Shown here one piece after another: positions 6,176 through 62,619 of a stretch of DNA of 64,000 bases. The position numbers and the translations under genes were made by a program. Within the stretch, counting starts at the first letter, position 1. Every line of letters starts with the position of its first letter. The notes below the pieces were generated by a model. The model was given only the letters and a program-made list of their open reading frames with translations, made no database searches and was not told where the DNA came from. This DNA comes from Bradyrhizobium diazoefficiens (lineage in GTDB: Bacteria > Pseudomonadota > Alphaproteobacteria > Rhizobiales > Xanthobacteraceae), in contig NZ_JAENXS010000001.1 of assembly GCF_016612535.1 (NCBI RefSeq), forward strand, positions 1,389,501-1,453,500, written 5' to 3'.

Positions 6176-7600
<1,425 letters not shown>

Positions 7601-50049: not shown

Positions 50050-51051
50050 CTACGGCCAAGCGTCCGCGATGTTTGGCGTTTCGATGTCTTCAAAGGTCAC
50101 GGGCTTGCCGGCATCAAGGAGCGCCTTGGCTTTCTGCACGGCCTGAGCGGTAAGAGGCCAGTAGCCGAGGTTGGACACTATGCGGGGGACGCGAACCCGC
50201 GTCACGACCGTCAGAGGCTCTTTGGTCTGAAGGTGCGACAAAGCGTCCTCTGAAGTGACGAGCTGGAGCGTCAAAGGACCTTTGATCTCATCGAACTTCG
50301 CTGAGATGTGCAGACGATCAATTTCGCCCGTTCCCGTATCCTTCAAGATGCTGCGGGTAAACGTGCCGGGCACGGACGCGGTCCAGCCGGTCACGCTCGC
50401 ATCAGCGATCACACGCCATGTCGCTTCGGGGTTCTTCGGCCTGAGAAGGATGTGATGTTCGTCGATCTTGGCTGGAATAACGTCAGATACCCATAATTCC
50501 CACAAACGAGTCATAATCTGTGTGAACGATGGCTCGTTCTCAGAGTCTAGCACCGCATTGATGAACCGGGGGTCACCACCGCCAGCATCTGGAACATAGG
50601 GAAACCTGCTGAGATTGGATTGCGAGACCAGTAAATAAACGATGGACTGGAGGGCCGCGTTTATCTCGTGGCCGAGGCGATCGGCACTGAGGCCTTCGAA
50701 GACGAGCGTTCGCATCCCACGCCAGTCGGCGGCGTCCTGAGAGTCTCGCGTATATCCCTTGACACTGACGAGAATTCCTTGCTGCCAAGGGATGCCCACT
50801 TCGGTCAGGATGCCAGCGAAGATGTCGACGTCCGTCGTGCCGAGTGTCTTGGCTTCGTTCTTACATCCGAGCACGATTTGTACAGGATAGCCCGCGACGT
50901 CGGACGCGATCAGAATGTCAACTTCGCGGCTGCGCTTTACCTTGCCTTTGACGACGGGAAGCTTCTTCCGCGTTTCGACACGAAGGCCGGGTACCTTATG
51001 CATCATCGCTACGAGGTCTTCTAGGATGTTTCCCTTAGCTTTCGCGGTCAT
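50050..51051 (-). CDS. Restriction-endonuclease-like protein with altered active-site motif
   Basis: A 333-residue protein whose N-terminal 150 residues match Mrr/restriction-like PD-(D/E)XK folds: LEDLVAMMHKVPGLRVETRK, REVDILIASDVAGYPVQIVL (motif Asp), GCKNEAKTLGTTDVDIFAGI, QQGILVSVKGYTRDSQDAAD. In relatives the strand reads ECK or QCK before the catalytic Lys; here it reads GCK, so one acidic or polar active-site residue appears replaced. The C-terminal half resembles no domain I know. ATG 51051. Confidence 0.75.
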   Translation of the reverse strand: MTAKAKGNILEDLVAMMHKVPGLRVETRKKLPVVKGKVKRSREVDILIASDVAGYPVQIVLGCKNEAKTLGTTDVDIFAGILTEVGIPWQQGILVSVKGYTRDSQDAADWRGMRTLVFEGLSADRLGHEINAALQSIVYLLVSQSNLSRFPYVPDAGGGDPRFINAVLDSENEPSFTQIMTRLWELWVSDVIPAKIDEHHILLRPKNPEATWRVIADASVTGWTASVPGTFTRSILKDTGTGEIDRLHISAKFDEIKGPLTLQLVTSEDALSHLQTKEPLTVVTRVRVPRIVSNLGYWPLTAQAVQKAKALLDAGKPVTFEDIETPNIADAWP

Positions 51052-51271
51052 CTTGCCGCCTGGTCCTTGATTAGCGCCAATGGCCGTAGGTGCGGCCCTC
51101 AATCAAGCTAGGGAGCCGATGGGGGTCGAATCTGCGACGGTCCACTGACGTTATTGTACCATGGGTGCGCGACGGATCTATCTCGTATTACGGTGTACTC
51201 AATTGGAATCCGCCGATTGCGGTGAGATCTCGCTCGACCGCGGGGGAACGCGACATGTGCCACACCTCAGC

Positions 51272-52153: not shown

Positions 52154-53794
52154 ATGGAGACACGCTACGGAGCGCTCGGGGCGGACGACGAGCGCGATGC
52201 GCCGCGCGCCTCTCGCGTGGTCGAACTTGGCAGCCGTGCCGGCGTGCCGGGCGGACAGGCCGTCCTCTGCGCGGAGCGGGTCTCCAAATCCTTTGCCGGG
52301 GTGAAGGCGCTCCACGACGTCGACTTCGAACTTCGCTACGGCGAAGTGCATGCGCTGATGGGCGAGAACGGTGCCGGCAAGAGCACCCTGATGAAGATCC
52401 TTGCCGGCGTGCACACGAGCTACGACGGCACCATTCTGGTCGAGGGCCAAGCAGCGTCATTCAGCGGCGTGCGCGACGCTGAAGAGGCCGGCGTCGCCAT
52501 CATCCACCAGGAGCTGAACCTCGTTCCCGAGCTGAGCGTCGCCGACAATATCTTCCTTGGCCGAGAGCCGCTGATCGGCGGCGTATTGATCGACCGGCGC
52601 CGGATGGCCAGAGCCGCCGAGCGCCTGCTGGCCCGCCTCGGCGTAACGATCGCGCCTGACACCAGGATTGCCGGCCTGCGCGTCGGCGAGCAGCAGCTCG
52701 TCGAGATCGCCAAGGCGCTATCACTCAATGCGCGCATCCTCATCATGGACGAGCCGACCTCGGCGCTGTCGTCGTCGGAGTGTGACACGCTGTTCAAGAT
52801 CGTGCGCCAGCTCGCGAGCGAGGGCGTCGCCATCATCTACACGTCGCATCGCATCGAGGAGGTGCTGGAGCTTGCCGACCGCGTCACCGTGCTGCGCGAT
52901 GGCCGGCGCGTGGTGACGGCGCGAATCGACGAACTCTCGCGCGCAGCCATCATCTCGGCGATGGTCGGCCGCGAGATGGCCGCGAACGCGCGCGGCGCAA
53001 CCGCGCAGGACGGCGCGGCCGTCCTCTCGGTGCAGGACCTGACGCTGGATACGCTCGGTCCGCACGGATGGCGGCGGACGCTGCACGGCGTGAGTTTCGA
53101 GCTGAAGCGCGGCGAGATCCTCGGTATCGGCGGCCTGCTCGGGTCCGGCCGGACGGAGATCCTGGAGTCGATCTTCGGTGTGGCGCGTGGCTGGCGGACC
53201 GGCAGCATCGCGATCGACGGTGCTGCGGTCGACATCAACTCTCCCTCCGACGCCTATCATCTCGGCGTCGCGCTCGTCAGCGAGGACCGCAAGGAGCGCG
53301 GCCTGCATCTGGCGGCCTCGATCTGCGACAATGTCGCGCTGCCCTCGATCGGCGCGCTCTCGCGATTTGGCCTGCGCGCTTTCACCCGCGAACGCGCACT
53401 CGCCGCCGACATGGTCAAGCGGCTCTCGGTTCGCTGCACCGGCATCGGCCAAGAGACCGCTGCGCTGTCCGGCGGCAACCAGCAAAAGGTCGTGATCGGC
53501 AAATGGCTGGCGACCGAGCCGCGCATCCTGCTGCTCGACGAGCCAACCCGCGGCATCGACATCGGCGCCAAACTGGAGATCTACCGATTGATCTTCGATC
53601 TCGCCGCGCAGGGGCTCGGCATCATCGTGGTCACCTCGGAAATGCCCGAACTCCTGCTGTTGTCCGACCGCATCCTCGTCATGTGCGAGGGACGCCAGAC
53701 CGGCATCCTCGCACGCGAGAACGCGACGCAGGAGACGGTGATGCGCCTTGCGGCACCAGGGATGGCGAAATGGTCGCAGGAAGCGGCATCATGA
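52154..53794 (+). CDS. Sugar-type ABC transporter ATPase with two nucleotide-binding domains
   Basis: A 546-residue RbsA/XylG-class protein: Walker A MGENGAGKSTLMKILAG, signature-region RIAGLRVGEQQLVEIAKALS and Walker B ILIMDEPTSALSSSE in the first cassette; GLLGSGRTEILE, ALSGGNQQKVVIGKWLA and LLLDEPTRGIDIGA in the second. The first 38 residues are an extra hydrophilic extension. CGGGAGGAAAACCCA precedes ATG 52154. First gene of an operon with permease, binding protein and DUF1349 genes. Its TGA overlaps the permease ATG. Confidence 0.95.
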   Translation: METRYGALGADDERDAPRASRVVELGSRAGVPGGQAVLCAERVSKSFAGVKALHDVDFELRYGEVHALMGENGAGKSTLMKILAGVHTSYDGTILVEGQAASFSGVRDAEEAGVAIIHQELNLVPELSVADNIFLGREPLIGGVLIDRRRMARAAERLLARLGVTIAPDTRIAGLRVGEQQLVEIAKALSLNARILIMDEPTSALSSSECDTLFKIVRQLASEGVAIIYTSHRIEEVLELADRVTVLRDGRRVVTARIDELSRAAIISAMVGREMAANARGATAQDGAAVLSVQDLTLDTLGPHGWRRTLHGVSFELKRGEILGIGGLLGSGRTEILESIFGVARGWRTGSIAIDGAAVDINSPSDAYHLGVALVSEDRKERGLHLAASICDNVALPSIGALSRFGLRAFTRERALAADMVKRLSVRCTGIGQETAALSGGNQQKVVIGKWLATEPRILLLDEPTRGIDIGAKLEIYRLIFDLAAQGLGIIVVTSEMPELLLLSDRILVMCEGRQTGILARENATQETVMRLAAPGMAKWSQEAAS

Positions 53795-55128
53795 AAGCCC
53801 TGTTCCGCCTGCTCTCCCGCACCAAGCTCTATTGGGGGCTCCTGCTGATCTGCCTGATCGGCGCTGTTGTTTCGCCGCATACGTCATCGGGCCACAACAT
53901 CTTCCTGTCCTACGGCAATTTGACCGACGTGCTGCGCCAGGTCTCGATCACCGGACTGGTCGCGACCGGAATGACCATGGTCATCCTGCTCGGCGGCATC
54001 GACCTGTCGGTCGGCTCGGTGATGGGCTTCTCGACGGTGATCTGCGCCATGCTGTTGACCAAGCCCGGCTGGACCTCGGCGTCTGTCCTGGGCGTCCCGG
54101 CGGCAATCCTCGTCAGCGGCGCTGCCGTGGCGCTGGCTGCACGCTTCGTGTTCGCCGGCCTCGCGCGTGGCCGCGATGTCAGTGCCGGACGACGACGAGA
54201 GATCTCGCTGACGCACTGGCAGCGCACGGGCATACCGGGATTGCTGGGCCTCGCCGCCGCCATCGCAATCGGGTGGTGGACGATGGGCCAGGTGCCGGCC
54301 AAATTCGGCGTTCTCGGTGTCCTGGTGATCGCGCCCTGCCTCGCGATGGTGCTTGGCGGCATCAACGGGCTCTTGATCGTCGCCGGTCGGCTGCAGCCCT
54401 TCATCGCGACGCTCGCGATGATGGTCAGCGCACTCGGCATCGCGCGATTGACGGCCGGGTCCGACAATGCCGTGGTACCGGTCTACACCGGCACCAATGC
54501 GACCGAGGCCTTCGAGCTGCTGCGTTCGATGCTGTGGGGCGTGCTGCCTGTGCCAAGTGTCTTCTTCCTCGCGGCGATCTGCCTGTTCGGCGCGATCCTG
54601 CGCTTCACCACCTTCGGGCGCTATGCTTACGCGATCGGCGGCAACATCGAGGCCGCGAAGCTTTCCGGCATCAAGGTCGCGCAGGTGCAGCTCACGGCCT
54701 ACCTGCTGTCGAGCCTTCTCGCGGGGATCGCCGGCGTGCTGTTCGTCGCGCAGTACCGCCAGGGCAAGCCCGACGCGGGCACCGGCCTCGAGCTCGACGC
54801 GATCGCCGCCGTCGTGATCGGCGGCACCAGCCTGATGGGCGGTCGCGGCGGCCTCGCCGGCACATTCGTTGGCGTCCTGATCTTCGGCCTGCTCTCCGAC
54901 ATTCTTCAGCTTCAGAACATCGACTCCAATGTCCAGCTCGTGATGAAGGGGCTGATCATCGTCTGCACCGTGCTGGTGCAGGAACAGAATCTCGGCCAGC
55001 TCGTCGCGCGATGGCGGTTCCGCCGATCGGGCGAAGCACAGGCCGATCCGAGAACGGCCGAACCCCATCGGCCGCCAAGCGCCGCAAAGGCAGAATTCGC
55101 AAGGGAGGATCTCGATGAAGCGTCGTGA
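53791..55128 (+). CDS. Xylose/ribose-type ABC transporter permease
   Basis: A 445-residue membrane protein of the RbsC/XylH family with MVILLGGIDLSVGSVMGFST, the coupling loop region TTFGRYAYAIGGNIEAAKLS and VIGGTSLMGGRGGLAGTFVG. It is longer than RbsC because of an inserted segment at about residues 125-165 (RRREISLTHWQRTG) as in XylH-type permeases. A hydrophilic C-terminal tail of about 40 residues is unusual. It overlaps both neighbours (4 nt and 14 nt). Confidence 0.94.
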   Translation: MKALFRLLSRTKLYWGLLLICLIGAVVSPHTSSGHNIFLSYGNLTDVLRQVSITGLVATGMTMVILLGGIDLSVGSVMGFSTVICAMLLTKPGWTSASVLGVPAAILVSGAAVALAARFVFAGLARGRDVSAGRRREISLTHWQRTGIPGLLGLAAAIAIGWWTMGQVPAKFGVLGVLVIAPCLAMVLGGINGLLIVAGRLQPFIATLAMMVSALGIARLTAGSDNAVVPVYTGTNATEAFELLRSMLWGVLPVPSVFFLAAICLFGAILRFTTFGRYAYAIGGNIEAAKLSGIKVAQVQLTAYLLSSLLAGIAGVLFVAQYRQGKPDAGTGLELDAIAAVVIGGTSLMGGRGGLAGTFVGVLIFGLLSDILQLQNIDSNVQLVMKGLIIVCTVLVQEQNLGQLVARWRFRRSGEAQADPRTAEPHRPPSAAKAEFAREDLDEAS

Positions 55129-56083
55129 ATTCTTGAAGTTGTCGACCACCGCGGCGGGTGCCGCAATGACCATCTATCTGCCGGCCGGTTGGACGCCTGC
55201 AAGGGCCGCGGGCAGGTCGAAAGTCGGCTTCAGCCAGTGCACCACGCTGGAGCCGTGGCGCGTGCAGTTCAACAAGGACATCCAGGCCGAGGCGAAGAAC
55301 CATCCGGATATCGACCTCATCATTACGGACGGCCAGGACAAGACCGAGAAGCAGGTCGCCGATTGCGACAATTTGATCGTACAGCAGGTCAACGTGCTCC
55401 TTGTCTCGCCCAAGGAATCGGCCGGCCTGACCGGCGTGGTCGAAAAGGCGATCGACGCCAAGATTCCCGTCATCGTGCTCGACCGCAACGTCGACACCAA
55501 GCGCATCACCCAGTTCATCGGTGGCGACAACGTTGCGATCGGCAAGGCGGCCGGCGAGCACGCGGTGAAGCTGCTCGGCGGTCCGGGCAAGGCGGCCGGC
55601 AACGTCGTCGAAATCTGGGGCGGCATGGGCACTCAACCCGCGCACGACCGGCACGACGGCTTCCATGCCTTCACCGACAAGGAGCCCGGCATCAAGTACC
55701 TGCTCAACAACCAGTCGGGCGACTGGAAGCAGGACAAGGCCTACGACATCATGACAACGGCGCTTCGCAACAACGAGAAGATCGACATGGTCTACGGTCA
55801 TAACGATCCGATGGCCTATGGCGCATATCTCGCCGCCAAGGACGCCGGCCGCGACAAGGATATCAAGTTCATCATCGGCATCGACGGATTGCCGGACGAA
55901 GGCGTCACCTGGGTCTCCAAGGGCCAGCTTACCGCGACGTTCCTCTACGCAACGCCCGGCGCCGAAGGATTGAGGCAGGCGGCAAAGCTGCTCAAGGGCG
56001 AGAAGCTCAAGCCAGTCATCACCTTGCCAACAATGCTGATCACCAAGGAGAATGCGTCGGAGATCCTGAAGAAGAACGGATAG
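55115..56083 (+). CDS. Sugar-type ABC substrate-binding protein with Tat-like signal
   Basis: A 322-residue type I binding protein. The N-terminus MKRREFLKLSTTAAGAAMTI has the twin-arginine pattern, suggesting folded export. Mature motifs: KVGFSQCTTLEPWRVQFNKD, QQVNVLLVSPKESAGLTGVV, VIVLDRNVDTKRITQFIGGD, VYGHNDPMAYGAYLAAKDAG. The class is RbsB/YtfQ-like; the sugar is unknown. The start lies within the permease's last codons. Confidence 0.93.
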   Translation: MKRREFLKLSTTAAGAAMTIYLPAGWTPARAAGRSKVGFSQCTTLEPWRVQFNKDIQAEAKNHPDIDLIITDGQDKTEKQVADCDNLIVQQVNVLLVSPKESAGLTGVVEKAIDAKIPVIVLDRNVDTKRITQFIGGDNVAIGKAAGEHAVKLLGGPGKAAGNVVEIWGGMGTQPAHDRHDGFHAFTDKEPGIKYLLNNQSGDWKQDKAYDIMTTALRNNEKIDMVYGHNDPMAYGAYLAAKDAGRDKDIKFIIGIDGLPDEGVTWVSKGQLTATFLYATPGAEGLRQAAKLLKGEKLKPVITLPTMLITKENASEILKKNG

Positions 56084-56223
56084 CCTTGATCTGGCTTCAC
56101 CGATGTAGCGCCCACGAGAGCCAGGTGCGTCAAATCCCGCACCGGGCTCTCCGTTCGCGGCGCGGCTGCCTATTGCGCCAGATCGAGATCCGGCGGAATC
56201 GGCAACTTTCTTTGAGGTTTGAC

Positions 56224-56820
56224 ATGAGCGCTGCCGTCTTCGCCAGGCAGGATGGTGTCTGGCTGAACGAACCGGAACGATGGACCACCGCACAGGACGA
56301 CAGCCTCGAGATCGTCACCGACCAGGCCACCGATTTCTGGCAGAAAACTCACTACGGGTTCCACCGCGACAGCGGCCACTTTCTGGGTTTTCGGACCGCA
56401 GAGGCTTTTACTGCCGAGTTGCGCGTCCAGTGCGATTTTCGAGAACTCTACGATCAAGCCGGCATCATGGTGCGCGTCGACGCGGAGCATTGGGTCAAAG
56501 CCGGAATCGAATTTTCGGACGGGCGCGCCATGCTCTCGAGCGTATTGACCAACGGGCAGTCGGATTGGGCAACAGCCCCCTATGAGCACGATGCCGGCGA
56601 TTTCCGGATGCGCGTCACGATCGCGGGCGGCGTTCTGCGATTGCAGGCCTCGGCTGATGGCAAAATCTGGCCACTCGTCCGATTGGCTCCTTTCACCACG
56701 GCGCAATCCTACCGGGTCGGACCAATGGCTTGCACACCCGAACGAGGGGGATTGCCGGTCACGTTCACGAGATTTTCCCTGAAACCGCCGCTCGGCAAGG
56801 ATCTGCACGATCTCAGTTAG
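56224..56820 (+). CDS. DUF1349 concanavalin-like protein
   Basis: A 198-residue soluble beta-rich protein of the DUF1349 family: FWQKTHYGFHRDSGHFLGFR, QCDFRELYDQAGIMVRVDAE, WVKAGIEFSDGRAMLSSVLT and VTFTRFSLKP match the jelly-roll pattern. Members bind or act on carbohydrates in several genomes. 140 nt after the binding protein, it is probably the last gene of the operon and could process the imported sugar (inference). ATG 56224 follows TTTGAGG, a weak site. Confidence 0.85.
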   Translation: MSAAVFARQDGVWLNEPERWTTAQDDSLEIVTDQATDFWQKTHYGFHRDSGHFLGFRTAEAFTAELRVQCDFRELYDQAGIMVRVDAEHWVKAGIEFSDGRAMLSSVLTNGQSDWATAPYEHDAGDFRMRVTIAGGVLRLQASADGKIWPLVRLAPFTTAQSYRVGPMACTPERGGLPVTFTRFSLKPPLGKDLHDLS

Positions 56821-57051: not shown

Positions 57052-58038
57052 CTAATCAAGCTTCAGCTCGATCGCTCTTATTACCGGCGTCCAGCGTGCA
57101 ACCGCTTCTTCAATTGCTTGCGCCGTCTTTTGCGGATTGGAATCAAGTTCAGGTTCCATCCCGTCGGCCATCAGCATCTCGCGGAAATTCGGGTCAGCCA
57201 TCACGTCGCGTGTCGCATCCGCAATGTGCTCTATTGCGGCACCCGGTGTCCCCTTCGGAGCAAGCAGCGCCAGCCAACTTTCGGCTTTCAAATCCGGCAG
57301 GCCGGACTGAATGGCCGTTGGCACATCGGGCGCGCCTGGAAGACGATGCTGGCTGGTCATCGCCAGAATTCTGATCTTTCCGGCCCTGTGCAATTCGAGC
57401 AGCTGGCCCGTGCAGGACATAAACATGATTGGAATATGCCCGCCGATCAGGTCGTTGGTAGCCGGCGCAGCACCGCGATAGGGCACATGCCTCAGATCCT
57501 TGATGCCGCTCTGCAGTTTGAACATTTCGCCGGCGAGATGGTTCATGGTGCCCACGCCGGCTGAGGCATATGAAAGCTGGCCTGGATGTTCCTTGGCATA
57601 GGCAACGAGCTCGCCCAGATTGGTGACCGGCAGCGCAGGGTGCACGACTATGGCGAGCGCCGTGCTCACCAGCCGATAGATCGGCTCGAAATCGGCCGCC
57701 CCGTACAATGGATGCGCAGATGCGATCGGCGTGATGATGAGGTTACCGACGTTCCCCATCACGATGGTGTAGCCGTCGGCTTGCGCATGAGCTGCCATAT
57801 CGAGACCCAACGCTCCACCGGCACCACCCACATTCTGGATCACGACACCACCAAGCAGCGGTCGCACCCTTTCCGCCCATGGACGGCCAACCGCATCGTT
57901 GATGCCGCCGGCGGCATAGGGGATGACAAGGTGGATCGGTCGCGTGGAAGGGGTTTCCGACCGCGCCGCGCGCGGCAATGTCGCAGACACGGCTGCACTG
58001 CCTGCGATCTGAAGAAAATGACGACGAGAAACCGACAT
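57052..58038 (-). CDS. Bug-family (tripartite tricarboxylate-type) substrate-binding protein
   Basis: A 328-residue periplasmic protein with a twin-arginine leader (SVSRRHFLQIAGSAAVSATL) and Bug-family motifs: IHLVIPYAAGGINDAVGRPW, VVIQNVGGAGGALGLDMAAH, GVGTMNHLAGEMFKLQSG, HVPYRGAAPATNDLIGGHIP and the late FREMLMADGMEPELDSNPQK. Bug proteins capture carboxylates for TctAB permeases or for sensing. No TctA/TctB genes are near. ATG 58038 is chosen because GGAG lies six bases upstream; 58050 is also in frame. It sits 58 nt downstream of a paralogue fused to a LuxR-type regulator. Confidence 0.95.
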   Translation of the reverse strand: MSVSRRHFLQIAGSAAVSATLPRAARSETPSTRPIHLVIPYAAGGINDAVGRPWAERVRPLLGGVVIQNVGGAGGALGLDMAAHAQADGYTIVMGNVGNLIITPIASAHPLYGAADFEPIYRLVSTALAIVVHPALPVTNLGELVAYAKEHPGQLSYASAGVGTMNHLAGEMFKLQSGIKDLRHVPYRGAAPATNDLIGGHIPIMFMSCTGQLLELHRAGKIRILAMTSQHRLPGAPDVPTAIQSGLPDLKAESWLALLAPKGTPGAAIEHIADATRDVMADPNFREMLMADGMEPELDSNPQKTAQAIEEAVARWTPVIRAIELKLD

Positions 58039-58093
58039 TTCGCGCTCCATCCGTCGAAGTTCGCAAGGACGATATCGCCGACCGAAACAGACC

Positions 58094-58114
58094 GCCTCAC
58101 CCGATATGGTGACC
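58094..58114. promoter_or_regulatory. Candidate operator upstream of the Bug binding-protein gene
   Basis: TCACC-CGATAT-GGTGA at 58097-58112 within GCCTCACCCGATATGGTGA, 56 bp before the binding-protein start and overlapping the stop codon of the regulator gene. It closely resembles the palindrome at 59871-59892. Confidence 0.65.
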
Positions 58115-59749
58115 GACGCCGCGATTTTTCAAATCTGCTGCGACGGATGGCAAGCAAAAGTGGTTCATGGCGAGAGCCGTGAGCAACATCGCCAACTGGA
58201 CCTGGCCTGAGGTCCCGGTCTTTACGAAGATACGTCGCATATGGGTTTTGATGGTATTCGGCGACAGCCCAAGATCGCGAGCGGTCCGCGTCATCGGCAA
58301 TCCGTGGGTGACGGCGATCGCGATTCTTGCTTCCGCCTCCGTCAAGCCATAGGCATCGATCAGGCTTTTGACCGAAACCGAGGTGCCGATCCTCGGATCG
58401 CTTATGTGCAGAATGGCCGCAACGGAGTCCGTGTGCGGGCTTGAAAAAGCAGAGATATCCTTGCCCCGCACGGAGCTGATACGAATATGCAAGGAGCGAC
58501 TGTCGCCGCTCAGCGGGAGCAACAAGTGGTTCGAGACCACACCGGCTGCGGCCCTCCGGATGAGCCGCCCGAGCAGCGCCGTGTGCGGCGGCGAGTTTGT
58601 CTTGATCTCGGCGCCGCTGATGCGCAATGGGCTTCGGTCCTGCGCGAGCATTCGGGCCGCCGCGTTCGCAAACAAAACCTTTCCTTCGCGATCAACCAGA
58701 ATGACGCCATTTGCGAAGCGGTCGAGAATTTCATGCTCGACGCGCTGCAGCGAGCGATTTTGGTCGATGTTCGGCACGATCGCTCTGATCACGGGTGCCC
58801 AGCGCGCAATATCGCCCTTGAGGATGCGGAGCATCTGCTCCGGGCTTGAACGCAGATCGGGCTCCATGCCCGCGGTGAGCAGCGTCTGTAGAAACGCCGG
58901 ATCATCCATGCCCTCGCTCGTCGCATGCGCGATGTGGTCGATGATCGTGCGAGGCGTTGCTTTTGGTGCGAACAGCCCAAGCCAGCTTTGCGCGTTGAGT
59001 TCGGGCATCCTCGATTCGATTGCCGTCGGAATATCGCGCGCCGCGTCGAGCCGGGTTGGCGTCGTGACGGCAAGAATCCTGATCTTGCCGGCTCTGTGAA
59101 GATCGATGAGTTGTCCGGTCGCGACCGCTACCAGCAATTGGGCCTCGCCCGCAACAAGATCGGCCGTCGCAGGCCCCGCTCCGAAATATGGCACGTGCCG
59201 GAGGTCCGGCAGGCCGGCCTGCAGCTTCAATGTCTCGACCACCAGGTGATTGATGGTACCAACTCCTGCCGTCGCACAGGAAACCCCGCTGGGACGGGTC
59301 CGCGCGTACGCCACAAGCTCGCTCAAGTTGCCAACAGGCAGCGCCGGATGAACAGCAATGAAGAAGCCGGTCATCGCCAGGCGACGGATTGGCTCGAAAT
59401 CGTGAAGCCGATCGTAGAGCGGTGATGTCGCAGCCATGGGGGCGACAATCTGATTGCCGACGTTTCCGAGCAGGATGGTGTAGCCATCAGGCCGCGCCCT
59501 CGCCGCGGCGCTGACGCCAACCGCTCCGCCCGCGCCGCCGATATTGTCGATGATGATCGTAGCGAGCATCGAGCGCATCTTGTCCGCCCATGGACGGGCC
59601 AAAGCATCGTTCGAACCGCCCGGTGCGTAGGGAATCACAAGATGGATCGGCCTGGTCGCAAAACCACGCGGTGGCGCCGGGCGCGAGAGGCCGGTTGCAC
59701 CAATTCCAGCTCCAACAGGCTGAGACAGATGAGACTGTGAAACTGCCAT
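58097..59749 (-). CDS. Fusion regulator: Bug-type binding domain + PAS-like domain + LuxR-type HTH
   Basis: A 550-residue protein. Residues 33-328 align throughout with the neighbouring Bug protein (IHLVIPYAPGGSNDALARPW, NIGGAGGAVGVSAAARARPD, GVGTINHLVVETLKLQAGLP). The join follows the natural Bug C-terminus (ARWAPVIRAIVPNID). Residues 332-450 form a PAS-like domain (RFANGVILVDREGKVLFANA). Residues 486-545 are a LuxR/GerE helix-turn-helix (GLTEAEARIAIAVTHGLPMT, LGLSPNTIKTHMRRIFVKTG). The N-terminus is alignable with the paralogue's export leader but lacks the Arg pair and hydrophobic core, so the Bug domain should be cytoplasmic. ATG 59749 follows GAGGCGAAA. A one-component regulator is inferred. 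Confidence 0.92.
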   Translation of the reverse strand: MAVSQSHLSQPVGAGIGATGLSRPAPPRGFATRPIHLVIPYAPGGSNDALARPWADKMRSMLATIIIDNIGGAGGAVGVSAAARARPDGYTILLGNVGNQIVAPMAATSPLYDRLHDFEPIRRLAMTGFFIAVHPALPVGNLSELVAYARTRPSGVSCATAGVGTINHLVVETLKLQAGLPDLRHVPYFGAGPATADLVAGEAQLLVAVATGQLIDLHRAGKIRILAVTTPTRLDAARDIPTAIESRMPELNAQSWLGLFAPKATPRTIIDHIAHATSEGMDDPAFLQTLLTAGMEPDLRSSPEQMLRILKGDIARWAPVIRAIVPNIDQNRSLQRVEHEILDRFANGVILVDREGKVLFANAAARMLAQDRSPLRISGAEIKTNSPPHTALLGRLIRRAAAGVVSNHLLLPLSGDSRSLHIRISSVRGKDISAFSSPHTDSVAAILHISDPRIGTSVSVKSLIDAYGLTEAEARIAIAVTHGLPMTRTARDLGLSPNTIKTHMRRIFVKTGTSGQVQLAMLLTALAMNHFCLPSVAADLKNRGVGHHIG

Positions 59750-59870: not shown

Positions 59871-59892
59871 GCCTCACCCGATCGGGTGAGGC
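59871..59892. promoter_or_regulatory. Perfect 22-bp palindrome upstream of the Bug-PAS-LuxR gene
   Basis: Halves GCCTCACCCGA / TCGGGTGAGGC, exact, centred about 132 bp before the regulator start. Length and symmetry fit a LuxR-type operator, and the core TCACC-N6-GGTGA recurs at 58097-58112. Confidence 0.7.
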
Positions 59893-60931: not shown

Positions 60932-61303
60932 ATGGGACGGAGCATCGATCAGGTCATAGCTTCCCTGCCCCGCGACCAGCAGGAGCAGATCGAAGCGCGC
61001 TATGACGAACTCCGGCAGGAGGTCGAAGGGCTGCGCGAGCTGCGCCAGATCGCCGGCAAGGCCCAGGAAGATGTCGCGGCCGCCCTGAACATTAAGCAAC
61101 CGTCAGTTTCCAAGATCGAGAACCAGGCGGACATGTATCTCTCGACACTCCGCGGCTATGTCGAAGCGATCGGTGGCAAACTCGAACTGACGGTGAAGCT
61201 GCCGGCCCGGCCGCCTGTGAGGATCGAACATCTCGGCGACTCAACTCAGCCGGCGGCGAAACCGCCAGGTCGGCGAGCTGGTTCTCGGCGGAGGCTTGCT
61301 TGA
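60932..61303 (+). CDS. HigA-type antitoxin, XRE family
   Basis: A 123-residue protein: helical N-terminal part (SIDQVIASLPRDQQEQIEAR), then an XRE helix-turn-helix GKAQEDVAAALNIKQPSVSK followed by IENQADMYLSTLRGYVEAIG, typical of antitoxins in the HigB-upstream, HigA-downstream order. The last 25 residues (EHLGDSTQPAAKPPGRRAGS and beyond) extend past the usual end; this DNA carries the ribosome binding site of the next gene. AAGGGATGATCCT precedes ATG 60932, four bases after the toxin stop. Confidence 0.9.
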   Translation: MGRSIDQVIASLPRDQQEQIEARYDELRQEVEGLRELRQIAGKAQEDVAAALNIKQPSVSKIENQADMYLSTLRGYVEAIGGKLELTVKLPARPPVRIEHLGDSTQPAAKPPGRRAGSRRRLA

Positions 61304-62619
61304 CGCCTGAGACAATCACTCGACTGCTAGCCTCTATTAACGCCGGCCGCCTTCTGGTGGTCTGCGGCGCCGGGCTGTCGATGGCGCCACCCAGTAGCCT
61401 GCCGTCGGCCCGTGCGGTCACCGAGCGGTGCTTCGACAAATACCGTCTCGAATCTGACCCGAACTGCGACGTCGGTCTTCGGGACAATCTCGAGGCACTC
61501 GCCGAGCACTTTGCAGGCCTCAACACCCTGCAATCGGTCTTCATCGAACATCTCGTGCCTTGGCCCGCTTTTGTGCGACCGTCGAACACGGGGCATGCTG
61601 CGATAGCGGATTTCCTCATCACTCGCGCCGCCGTTGCCGGCATATCGAGCAACTACGATACGCTCATCGAGAGACGCGCTTGGGATTATGGGGCGGACTT
61701 CCGCGGTTCGCTCGATGGAGATGAAGCAACCGTCGATTCAGTGCGCCAAGCACCTTTGCTGAAATTCCATGGCTGCTCTCACCGCGATCGGCCATCCACG
61801 GTCTGGGCGCCTTCGCAGCTCCACGATCCGACCATCTCAGCTCGAATTGCGCGAAGCAAAGTGTGGATGGCTGCCAACCTTCGGCAAAAGGACCTGCTCG
61901 TCGTCGGCTTCTGGTCGGATTGGGAATACCTCAACGCCGTGATCGGCGAAGCGCTGATCGATGTGCAGCCGCTGTCCGTGACCGTGATTGACCTCTCGCC
62001 GACAAACGGGCTCGAGCAGAAAGCCCCGCAGCTCTGGGAGATAGCGCACGCACAAAACGTGACGTTCGAACATGTCCAAGAGTCCGGGGCTGCGGCGCTC
62101 GACGAGCTTCGTCGCGCGTTCTCATCGAACTACCTTCGTCAGGTCTTGGACGCCGGACGGGCCGCCTTTGAACACGCCATCGGAGTCCAGTGCGACCCAG
62201 CTTGGCTCAACGTCGGCAACTTCGACAGCGAAGCTCTGTATGGTCTGAGGCGCGATGCCGAAGGCGTCTCAGCGGCAGAGCCGGCCAAACTCCTGCGCCC
62301 TGCAAATCCGGAAGCCCTCGGCTTTTTCCACTTGCTGCTCCGTCAGGCTGGGGCTGTTGAACGGGCTGACGGTTATGATCTGAACGGCCGGACCATCCGC
62401 GTCCTCAACGGAGCTCAATCCGTCCTCGGAACGCTTCGTGGGAAGTTCGTCGAGCCGCCTGCCGCGATGCAGTCTGACATCGTTGTAGCAGTGGGCGCGA
62501 CAGACCTGGGCGTCCCGGACAACGTCGTGCGCAGCGGACGCGCCGGCGACGTCATTCGTCCTGATCCAGCGGGCGAATGGTACGACCTCCCTGGGGCAAG
62601 AGCGGCGTTGGGCATCTGA
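61300..62619 (+). CDS. SIR2-like NAD-binding domain protein
   Basis: A 439-residue protein with a SIR2-type Rossmann domain in the first 270 residues: LLVVCGAGLSMAPPSSLPSA (GAGxS motif, residues 23-27), AGISSNYDTLIERRAWDYGA (Asn118-Tyr-Asp120) and APLLKFHGCSHRDR (His157). These are the NAD-binding and catalytic residues of SIR2-like NADases in phage-defence proteins. The C-terminal 170 residues (ending GEWYDLPGARAALGI) are unassigned. TTG 61300 overlaps the antitoxin stop (TTGA), with GGAGG five bases upstream, so translation is coupled. Its TGA overlaps the next ATG. Not a deacetylase of the CobB type: the zinc-finger Cys residues are missing. Confidence 0.87.
   Translation: MTPETITRLLASINAGRLLVVCGAGLSMAPPSSLPSARAVTERCFDKYRLESDPNCDVGLRDNLEALAEHFAGLNTLQSVFIEHLVPWPAFVRPSNTGHAAIADFLITRAAVAGISSNYDTLIERRAWDYGADFRGSLDGDEATVDSVRQAPLLKFHGCSHRDRPSTVWAPSQLHDPTISARIARSKVWMAANLRQKDLLVVGFWSDWEYLNAVIGEALIDVQPLSVTVIDLSPTNGLEQKAPQLWEIAHAQNVTFEHVQESGAAALDELRRAFSSNYLRQVLDAGRAAFEHAIGVQCDPAWLNVGNFDSEALYGLRRDAEGVSAAEPAKLLRPANPEALGFFHLLLRQAGAVERADGYDLNGRTIRVLNGAQSVLGTLRGKFVEPPAAMQSDIVVAVGATDLGVPDNVVRSGRAGDVIRPDPAGEWYDLPGARAALGI

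Follow-up and report, generated by a model that had tools for sequence, protein, structure and literature searches.

Proteins of the Bug/TctC family (BugD, Bug27, TphC, AdpC and MatC; 2dvz is presumably BugE) are exported receptors. Cytoplasmic regulators with periplasmic-binding-protein folds are widespread in the LacI and LysR families, which use other DNA-binding domains and, to our knowledge, have no PAS domain. VqmA, which was solved with the autoinducer DPO, joins a PAS domain to a LuxR-type domain and lacks a solute-binding domain. PMC11452294 presents Bug proteins as abundant and, for the most part, lacking an assigned function. PMC9602780 states that kinases and regulators can carry domains with solute-binding profiles as their sensors; it also describes BctC-BctE of Bordetella, in which the Bug protein BctC takes part in carboxylate signalling by contacting, and acting on, a separate sensor kinase from the periplasm. 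In the SgrR/DsvR regulators, as presented in PMC13060122, a solute-binding domain (SBP_bac_5) is joined to an N-terminal helix-turn-helix (HTH). Solute-binding sensor domains have thus already been described, and the principle is known.

The locus presented here lies in a 64,000-nucleotide stretch of DNA (the window) and encodes a single chain in which a Bug domain is followed by a PAS-like domain and a GerE (LuxR-type) DNA-binding domain. Unlike the exported Bug receptors, the fusion lacks an export signal and carries a DNA-binding end. It resembles VqmA in its PAS-like and LuxR-type domains, the SgrR/DsvR regulators in the joining of a solute-binding to a DNA-binding domain, although the order is reversed and GerE is C-terminal, and BctC in the presumed use of a Bug domain for carboxylate signalling, although BctC is a periplasmic protein with a separate partner. 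The stand-alone GAF-PAS-GerE regulators of Bradyrhizobium share the PAS-GerE half of the fusion, but their N-terminal domain is GAF-like instead of Bug. The literature searched, which covered a minority of subscription papers, yielded no PAS-LuxR regulator that combines a Bug domain with shared operators, and no TctC-LuxR domain fusion; the original prediction likewise knew of no described example.

The features of the locus (Table 1) are best explained, with a probability of roughly 0.65, by a cytoplasmic one-component regulator that would sense a carboxylate-like ligand through a captured Bug domain and control both its own gene and an exported sister. With a Bug receptor fused to a gene switch and matching sites before both genes, the locus looks like a home-made nutrient sensor. 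The original prediction had proposed a one-component regulator with a cytoplasmic Bug sensor and the partner as a possible target, and its interpretation is supported; ligand sensing, DNA binding and cytoplasmic location are what we infer from the sequence.

Table 1 Features of the fusion locus (window coordinates).
Feature	Codons	Coordinates	Strand	Remarks
Partner Bug/TctC gene		57052..58050	-	Tat-like leader; proposed target
Bug-PAS-GerE fusion gene		58097..59749	-	550 aa; single open frame, ATG start
Degenerate export leader	1-32	59654..59749	-	Arg pair lost; gap-free against neighbour's leader
Bug/TctC domain	33-328	58766..59653	-	
PAS-like domain	340-450	58400..58732	-	PAS_4 just under cut-off; model and fold match
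GerE (LuxR-type) DNA-binding domain	469-522	58184..58345	-	Pfam 29.9 bits, cut-off 23.5
Site 1, operator candidate		59872..59891	.	Perfect 20-bp palindrome; 122 nt from fusion ATG
Site 2, operator candidate		58097..58112	.	Palindrome including fusion stop codon

Domain architecture and N-terminus of the fusion

A Pfam scan of the fusion protein matched TctC (PF03401) to residues 51-324 with 177.4 bits (cut-off 27) and placed GerE above its cut-off, while PAS_4, matching residues 343-428 with 21.4 bits, fell slightly under its cut-off of 23.1. The scan detected no SBP_bac_5, HTH_1, LysR_substrate or receiver domain. Modelling of residues 327-550 gave a PAS-like fold, and the arrangement of Bug, PAS-like and GerE domains in one chain, first proposed from the sequence alone, is confirmed by the profiles and fold models. 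The type II solute-binding fold of the Bug/TctC family spans residues ~30 to 329. The whole-chain structure prediction, proposed earlier as a check, has low confidence at ~331 to 460 and after 510. The last Bug helix extends to residue 344 in this model, with low confidence past 330. When the stand-alone regulators were aligned by tblastn with the uncut DNA of the locus, the match began at residue 328, where the Bug domain ends. This agrees with the claim that the Bug domain was joined at its natural C-terminus, and implies that it occupies the place of the GAF-like domain, which is absent from the fusion.

The partner gene encodes a Bug protein with 54% identity. Its leader matches the TAT_signal profile with 17.4 bits, under the cut-off of 22.7, and aligns with the fusion N-terminus over 37 residues without a gap when the partner is counted from an inner ATG at 58038. 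The spacing of 58 nt between the two genes given originally is right for this inner ATG; for the ATG at 58050 it is 46 nt. The Arg pair at positions 5-6 of the partner leader is replaced by Gln-Ser in the fusion, as expected from the predicted loss of the twin Arg, and the first Lys or Arg of the fusion does not occur before residue 23, so that a search for a working export signal found none. Arg-Arg is present within the first 20 residues in 107 of 117 Bug relatives. The best 15-residue hydropathy within the first 45 residues is 0.73 for the fusion and 1.23 for the partner, against a median of 1.57 for the 117 relatives (partner included); the proposed loss of the hydrophobic core is thus a fair description but a graded one, as two of the 117 relatives are equally low. 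An earlier TTG start would add 32 residues, in which no signal was evident by eye. By these comparisons the export leader of the fusion is eroded, and the DNA-binding end also argues for a cytoplasmic location. The second fusion described below, P0003, lacks the first 37 residues, and the loss of the leader is therefore known from one species only.

A tree of 56 Bug sequences pairs the Bug domain of the fusion with the partner Bug protein as its sister (support 96/71), the partner being flagged as a long branch. This placement fits a tandem duplication of a Bug gene, without proving it. The genome contains 3 TctA and 17 TctC places, and no TctA gene was found in the 64-kb window.

A second fusion and conservation of the Bug domain

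The search for the same fusion in other genomes, suggested in the original prediction, yielded P0003, a protein from a 1,934-base metagenome contig, whose JGI name covers both fusion parts. It is 89% identical to the window fusion across 513 residues, with no internal gap or stop. Identical residues number 260/291 in the Bug part, 107/122 in the PAS part and 90/100 in the remainder; the two halves are conserved about equally. A frameshift or an assembly join, which would have made the fusion an artefact, was rejected because this independent fusion exists on another contig.

The fusion is rare. A collection of 5.8 billion proteins was searched with two queries, ~8,000 candidates with the most common words being scored in each, and two clusters spanning both halves occurred among the matches listed (the best 120 of 536 for the whole protein, all 106 for the PAS-GerE half). 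Among the matches listed for 265 genomes of the genus, with five candidates per genome scored, only the window's own genome had a full-length match. One pattern scan of limited sensitivity, run over an 84,980-species collection, found three relatives, all of them partial, and no plasmid record had a single place covering 80% of the fusion query (818 records had partial matches).

Of 66 strongly conserved Bug columns, 54 are kept in the fusion and 12 are changed. Eight of the changed columns lie in the Bug body, four of them in residues 154-171, and all eight changes are found in P0003 as well. By an approximate placement, residues 154-171 would lie around the stretch that matches the pocket residues TphC 150-156, the Bug pocket being described in PMC8556258 and PMC11452294. 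With changed columns this near the presumed pocket, ligand binding could be altered or lost; the fusion and its partner may have different ligands, or the fusion may bind its ligand more weakly. The Bug loop motif P-F-x-A-G-G-x-x-D, taken from PMC8556258, corresponds to P40-Y-A-P-G-G-S-N-D48 in the fusion, where four of the six named positions are kept, F is replaced by Y and A by P; most of the aligned Bug relatives, too, have P in place of this A. The genes near the fusion, for a sugar-type ABC transporter and a DUF1349 protein, gave no pointer to the ligand.

Differences between the two fusions fall at 8 of 136 conserved (70%) columns and 23 of 155 others in the Bug part (p 0.014), and at 12 of 117 conserved (70%) columns and 13 of 107 others in the PAS-GerE part (p 0.68). 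They thus appear to avoid conserved columns in Bug and not in PAS-GerE, so the evidence for constraint is mixed.

The first part of this result bears on the proposal that the protein is a DNA-binding regulator in which Bug no longer binds a ligand and serves as a dimerization or spacer part, the PAS domain being the sensor as in VqmA. The changes in 154-171 would agree with this, and so would the fact that VqmA turned up when the PAS-GerE model was compared with known folds, though at an rmsd of 10.8-13.9. Since most conserved Bug positions are nevertheless kept, and the differences between the fusions avoid them, we regard loss of ligand binding as unlikely. The second part of the result would suit a recent accidental fusion on its way to decay that makes no working regulator, as would the rarity of the fusion, with two clusters among the matches listed and one genome of 265. 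Such decay is hard to reconcile with two fusions that are 89% identical, open throughout and about equally kept in both halves, or with the presence of both operator-like sites, and we consider it improbable.

Stand-alone regulators and palindromic sites

For the PAS-GerE half of the fusion, identity to stand-alone regulators reaches 46%. These regulators have ~380 residues and consist of GAF-like, PAS-like and GerE domains, their GAF (GAF_2) and PAS profiles scoring below cut-off. A match at E 1e-30 was obtained in 24 of 257 genomes, the own genome included, and 25 loci from 23 other genomes were taken as the stand-alone set (35-44% identity). The recognition helix of the fusion is nearly identical to that of this family. 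Queries that recovered the Bug genes of the window and of four control loci detected none in the stand-alone loci, 12 long and 25 short, which suggests that the tie of the regulator to a Bug target arrived with the fusion. The stand-alone regulator at L105:5332-6828 (genome G016) is possibly broken, since its match is split into several pieces that overlap.

Two palindromic sites, which the original prediction had not reported, flank the fusion gene. The core of site 1, upstream of the gene, is 59874-59889, and site 2 precedes the partner Bug gene by 46 or 58 nt, depending on the start codon. At no more than one mismatch, TCACCNNATNNGGTGA, a pattern drawn from the sites themselves, matches nowhere else in the window (0.05 expected). 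In the 89.7 kb of the 25 stand-alone loci, TCACC-N6-GGTGA has 24 exact-arm sites, where 0.12 would be expected. With the regulator start set by alignment, 14 loci carry such a site at -160..-60 and five carry one just behind the stop; five sites lie elsewhere. These loci are related and their counts are thus not independent. Eleven of the 25 have no exact-arm site upstream, including the five less similar loci L086-L090. The palindrome starts at -98 to -118 in the 14 loci and, by the same measure, at -140 for site 1 of the fusion. This off-position, together with the null result of the PAS-GerE constraint test, weighs slightly against regulation by the fusion and in favour of decay.

A site matrix was built from the 14 upstream sites of stand-alone regulators in other genomes, with the window excluded. 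Its best score in the 64-kb window was at 59874 (26.3), followed by 58097 (19.0) and a third place at 9.9; the best of 20 random windows reached 16.1. Over the whole genome, TCACCCGATNNGGTGA at no more than two mismatches matched 63 times when the strands were counted separately, so that a palindrome counts twice, and its backward control matched 10 times. In three of seven stand-alone loci (L099, L101 and L102) the interval between the regulator and a small same-strand gene contains an exact-arm palindrome; in L099 and L101 this gene is YgjV-like, below Pfam's cut-off. The layout of the window matches that of these loci, with the partner Bug gene apparently in the place of the small gene. The proposal that the partner is a target of the fusion gains support from the operator-like site 2 between the two genes, detected by a matrix trained only on stand-alone loci of other genomes. 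The palindrome may thus be a predicted operator for the whole GAF-PAS-GerE family; no description of TCACC-N6-GGTGA was found in a narrow literature search.

Repeated elements were rejected as an explanation of the palindromes because the exact 16-mer is so rare: it has two occurrences in the 8-Mb genome and is present in 4 of 117 genomes, of which the own genome is one. Exact 16-mers with no family regulator within 1.5 kb are found at C1:1031309 of the own genome, C1:2267940 of G025 and C1:5314716 of G191. Terminators are an unlikely explanation, as the dyads have no loop or T run and site 1 is upstream of the gene. A weak plus-strand hairpin (58107-58121) overlaps the edge of site 2, and one terminator-like hairpin (59838-59826) lies between site 1 and the fusion ATG, which counts against the proposed regulator; there are six terminator-like sites in all, against 2.1 expected. 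The sole promoter match, near site 2 at 58153-58124, is weak, with 0.5 expected by chance.

The own genome also contains a stand-alone GAF-PAS-GerE paralogue, located on contig C2 behind a TauE/SafE gene with a palindrome in front; this paralogue (L053) has no palindrome at its own start. It may bind the same sites as the fusion. One could go further and suppose that the palindromes are real operators worked by the paralogue, the fusion gene being a target and no regulator; the same kind of palindrome in front of the gene next to the paralogue is in keeping with this. The retention of the family recognition helix by the fusion, and its position between two sites, as seen for some stand-alone regulators at their own loci, make this supposition very improbable. 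That the protein is exported, or that the fusion is a misjoined gene pair, would be suggested by the oddity of the layout alone and, given the lack of an export signal and the independent second fusion, has a negligible probability.

Copies of the palindrome also occur beside other genes. It adjoins YgjV-like (below cut-off) and TauE/SafE membrane protein genes at L099:6193-6208, L101:7467-7482, L104:5788-5803 and L062:6399-6414, and the neighbourhood of these genes with GAF-PAS-GerE regulators suggests a putative regulator-plus-membrane-protein module in the genus. A perfect 16-bp copy at L061:6310-6325 lies between LysR-type and UvrB-like genes, before a short open frame (6415-6642) and with no family regulator within 1.5 kb.

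Proposed mechanism and neighbouring genes

For the fusion as a carboxylate-sensing regulator, the following sequence of events is envisaged. A small carboxylate would close the Bug domain, and the movement would reach a GerE dimer by way of the helix at the join and then the PAS domain. The dimer would then bind or leave both palindromes and alter transcription, by activation or repression, of the fusion gene itself and of the exported sister Bug gene, whose product would catch that compound, or a similar one, outside the cell. As to its origin, there is perhaps an even chance that a Bug gene was duplicated in tandem and that one copy, without its leader, replaced the sensor of a GAF-PAS-GerE regulator, so that it now reads inside the cell the acid that its sister binds and sets the supply of the catcher.

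If so, the locus would show the swapping of a sensor, with a Bug domain recruited for use in the cytoplasm and the likely donor (the sister Bug gene), the acceptor family, the operators and the target all still visible. As these parts can be identified, domain recruitment could be tested here step by step. Promoter control by a Bug domain would also lend itself to use as a reporter in the search for Bug-family ligands.

Several other genes of the window were noted. A sugar-type ABC transporter (ATPase, permease and binding protein) followed by the DUF1349 gene occupies 52154-56820 and is convergent with the fusion locus. The protein encoded at 50050-51102 has a marginal match to Mrr-type restriction endonucleases (21.4 bits, cut-off 21). 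At 60932-62619 a small HTH gene precedes one whose product has a weak match to SIR2-like proteins (22.3 bits, cut-off 24.5); the two may form a defence-type pair.
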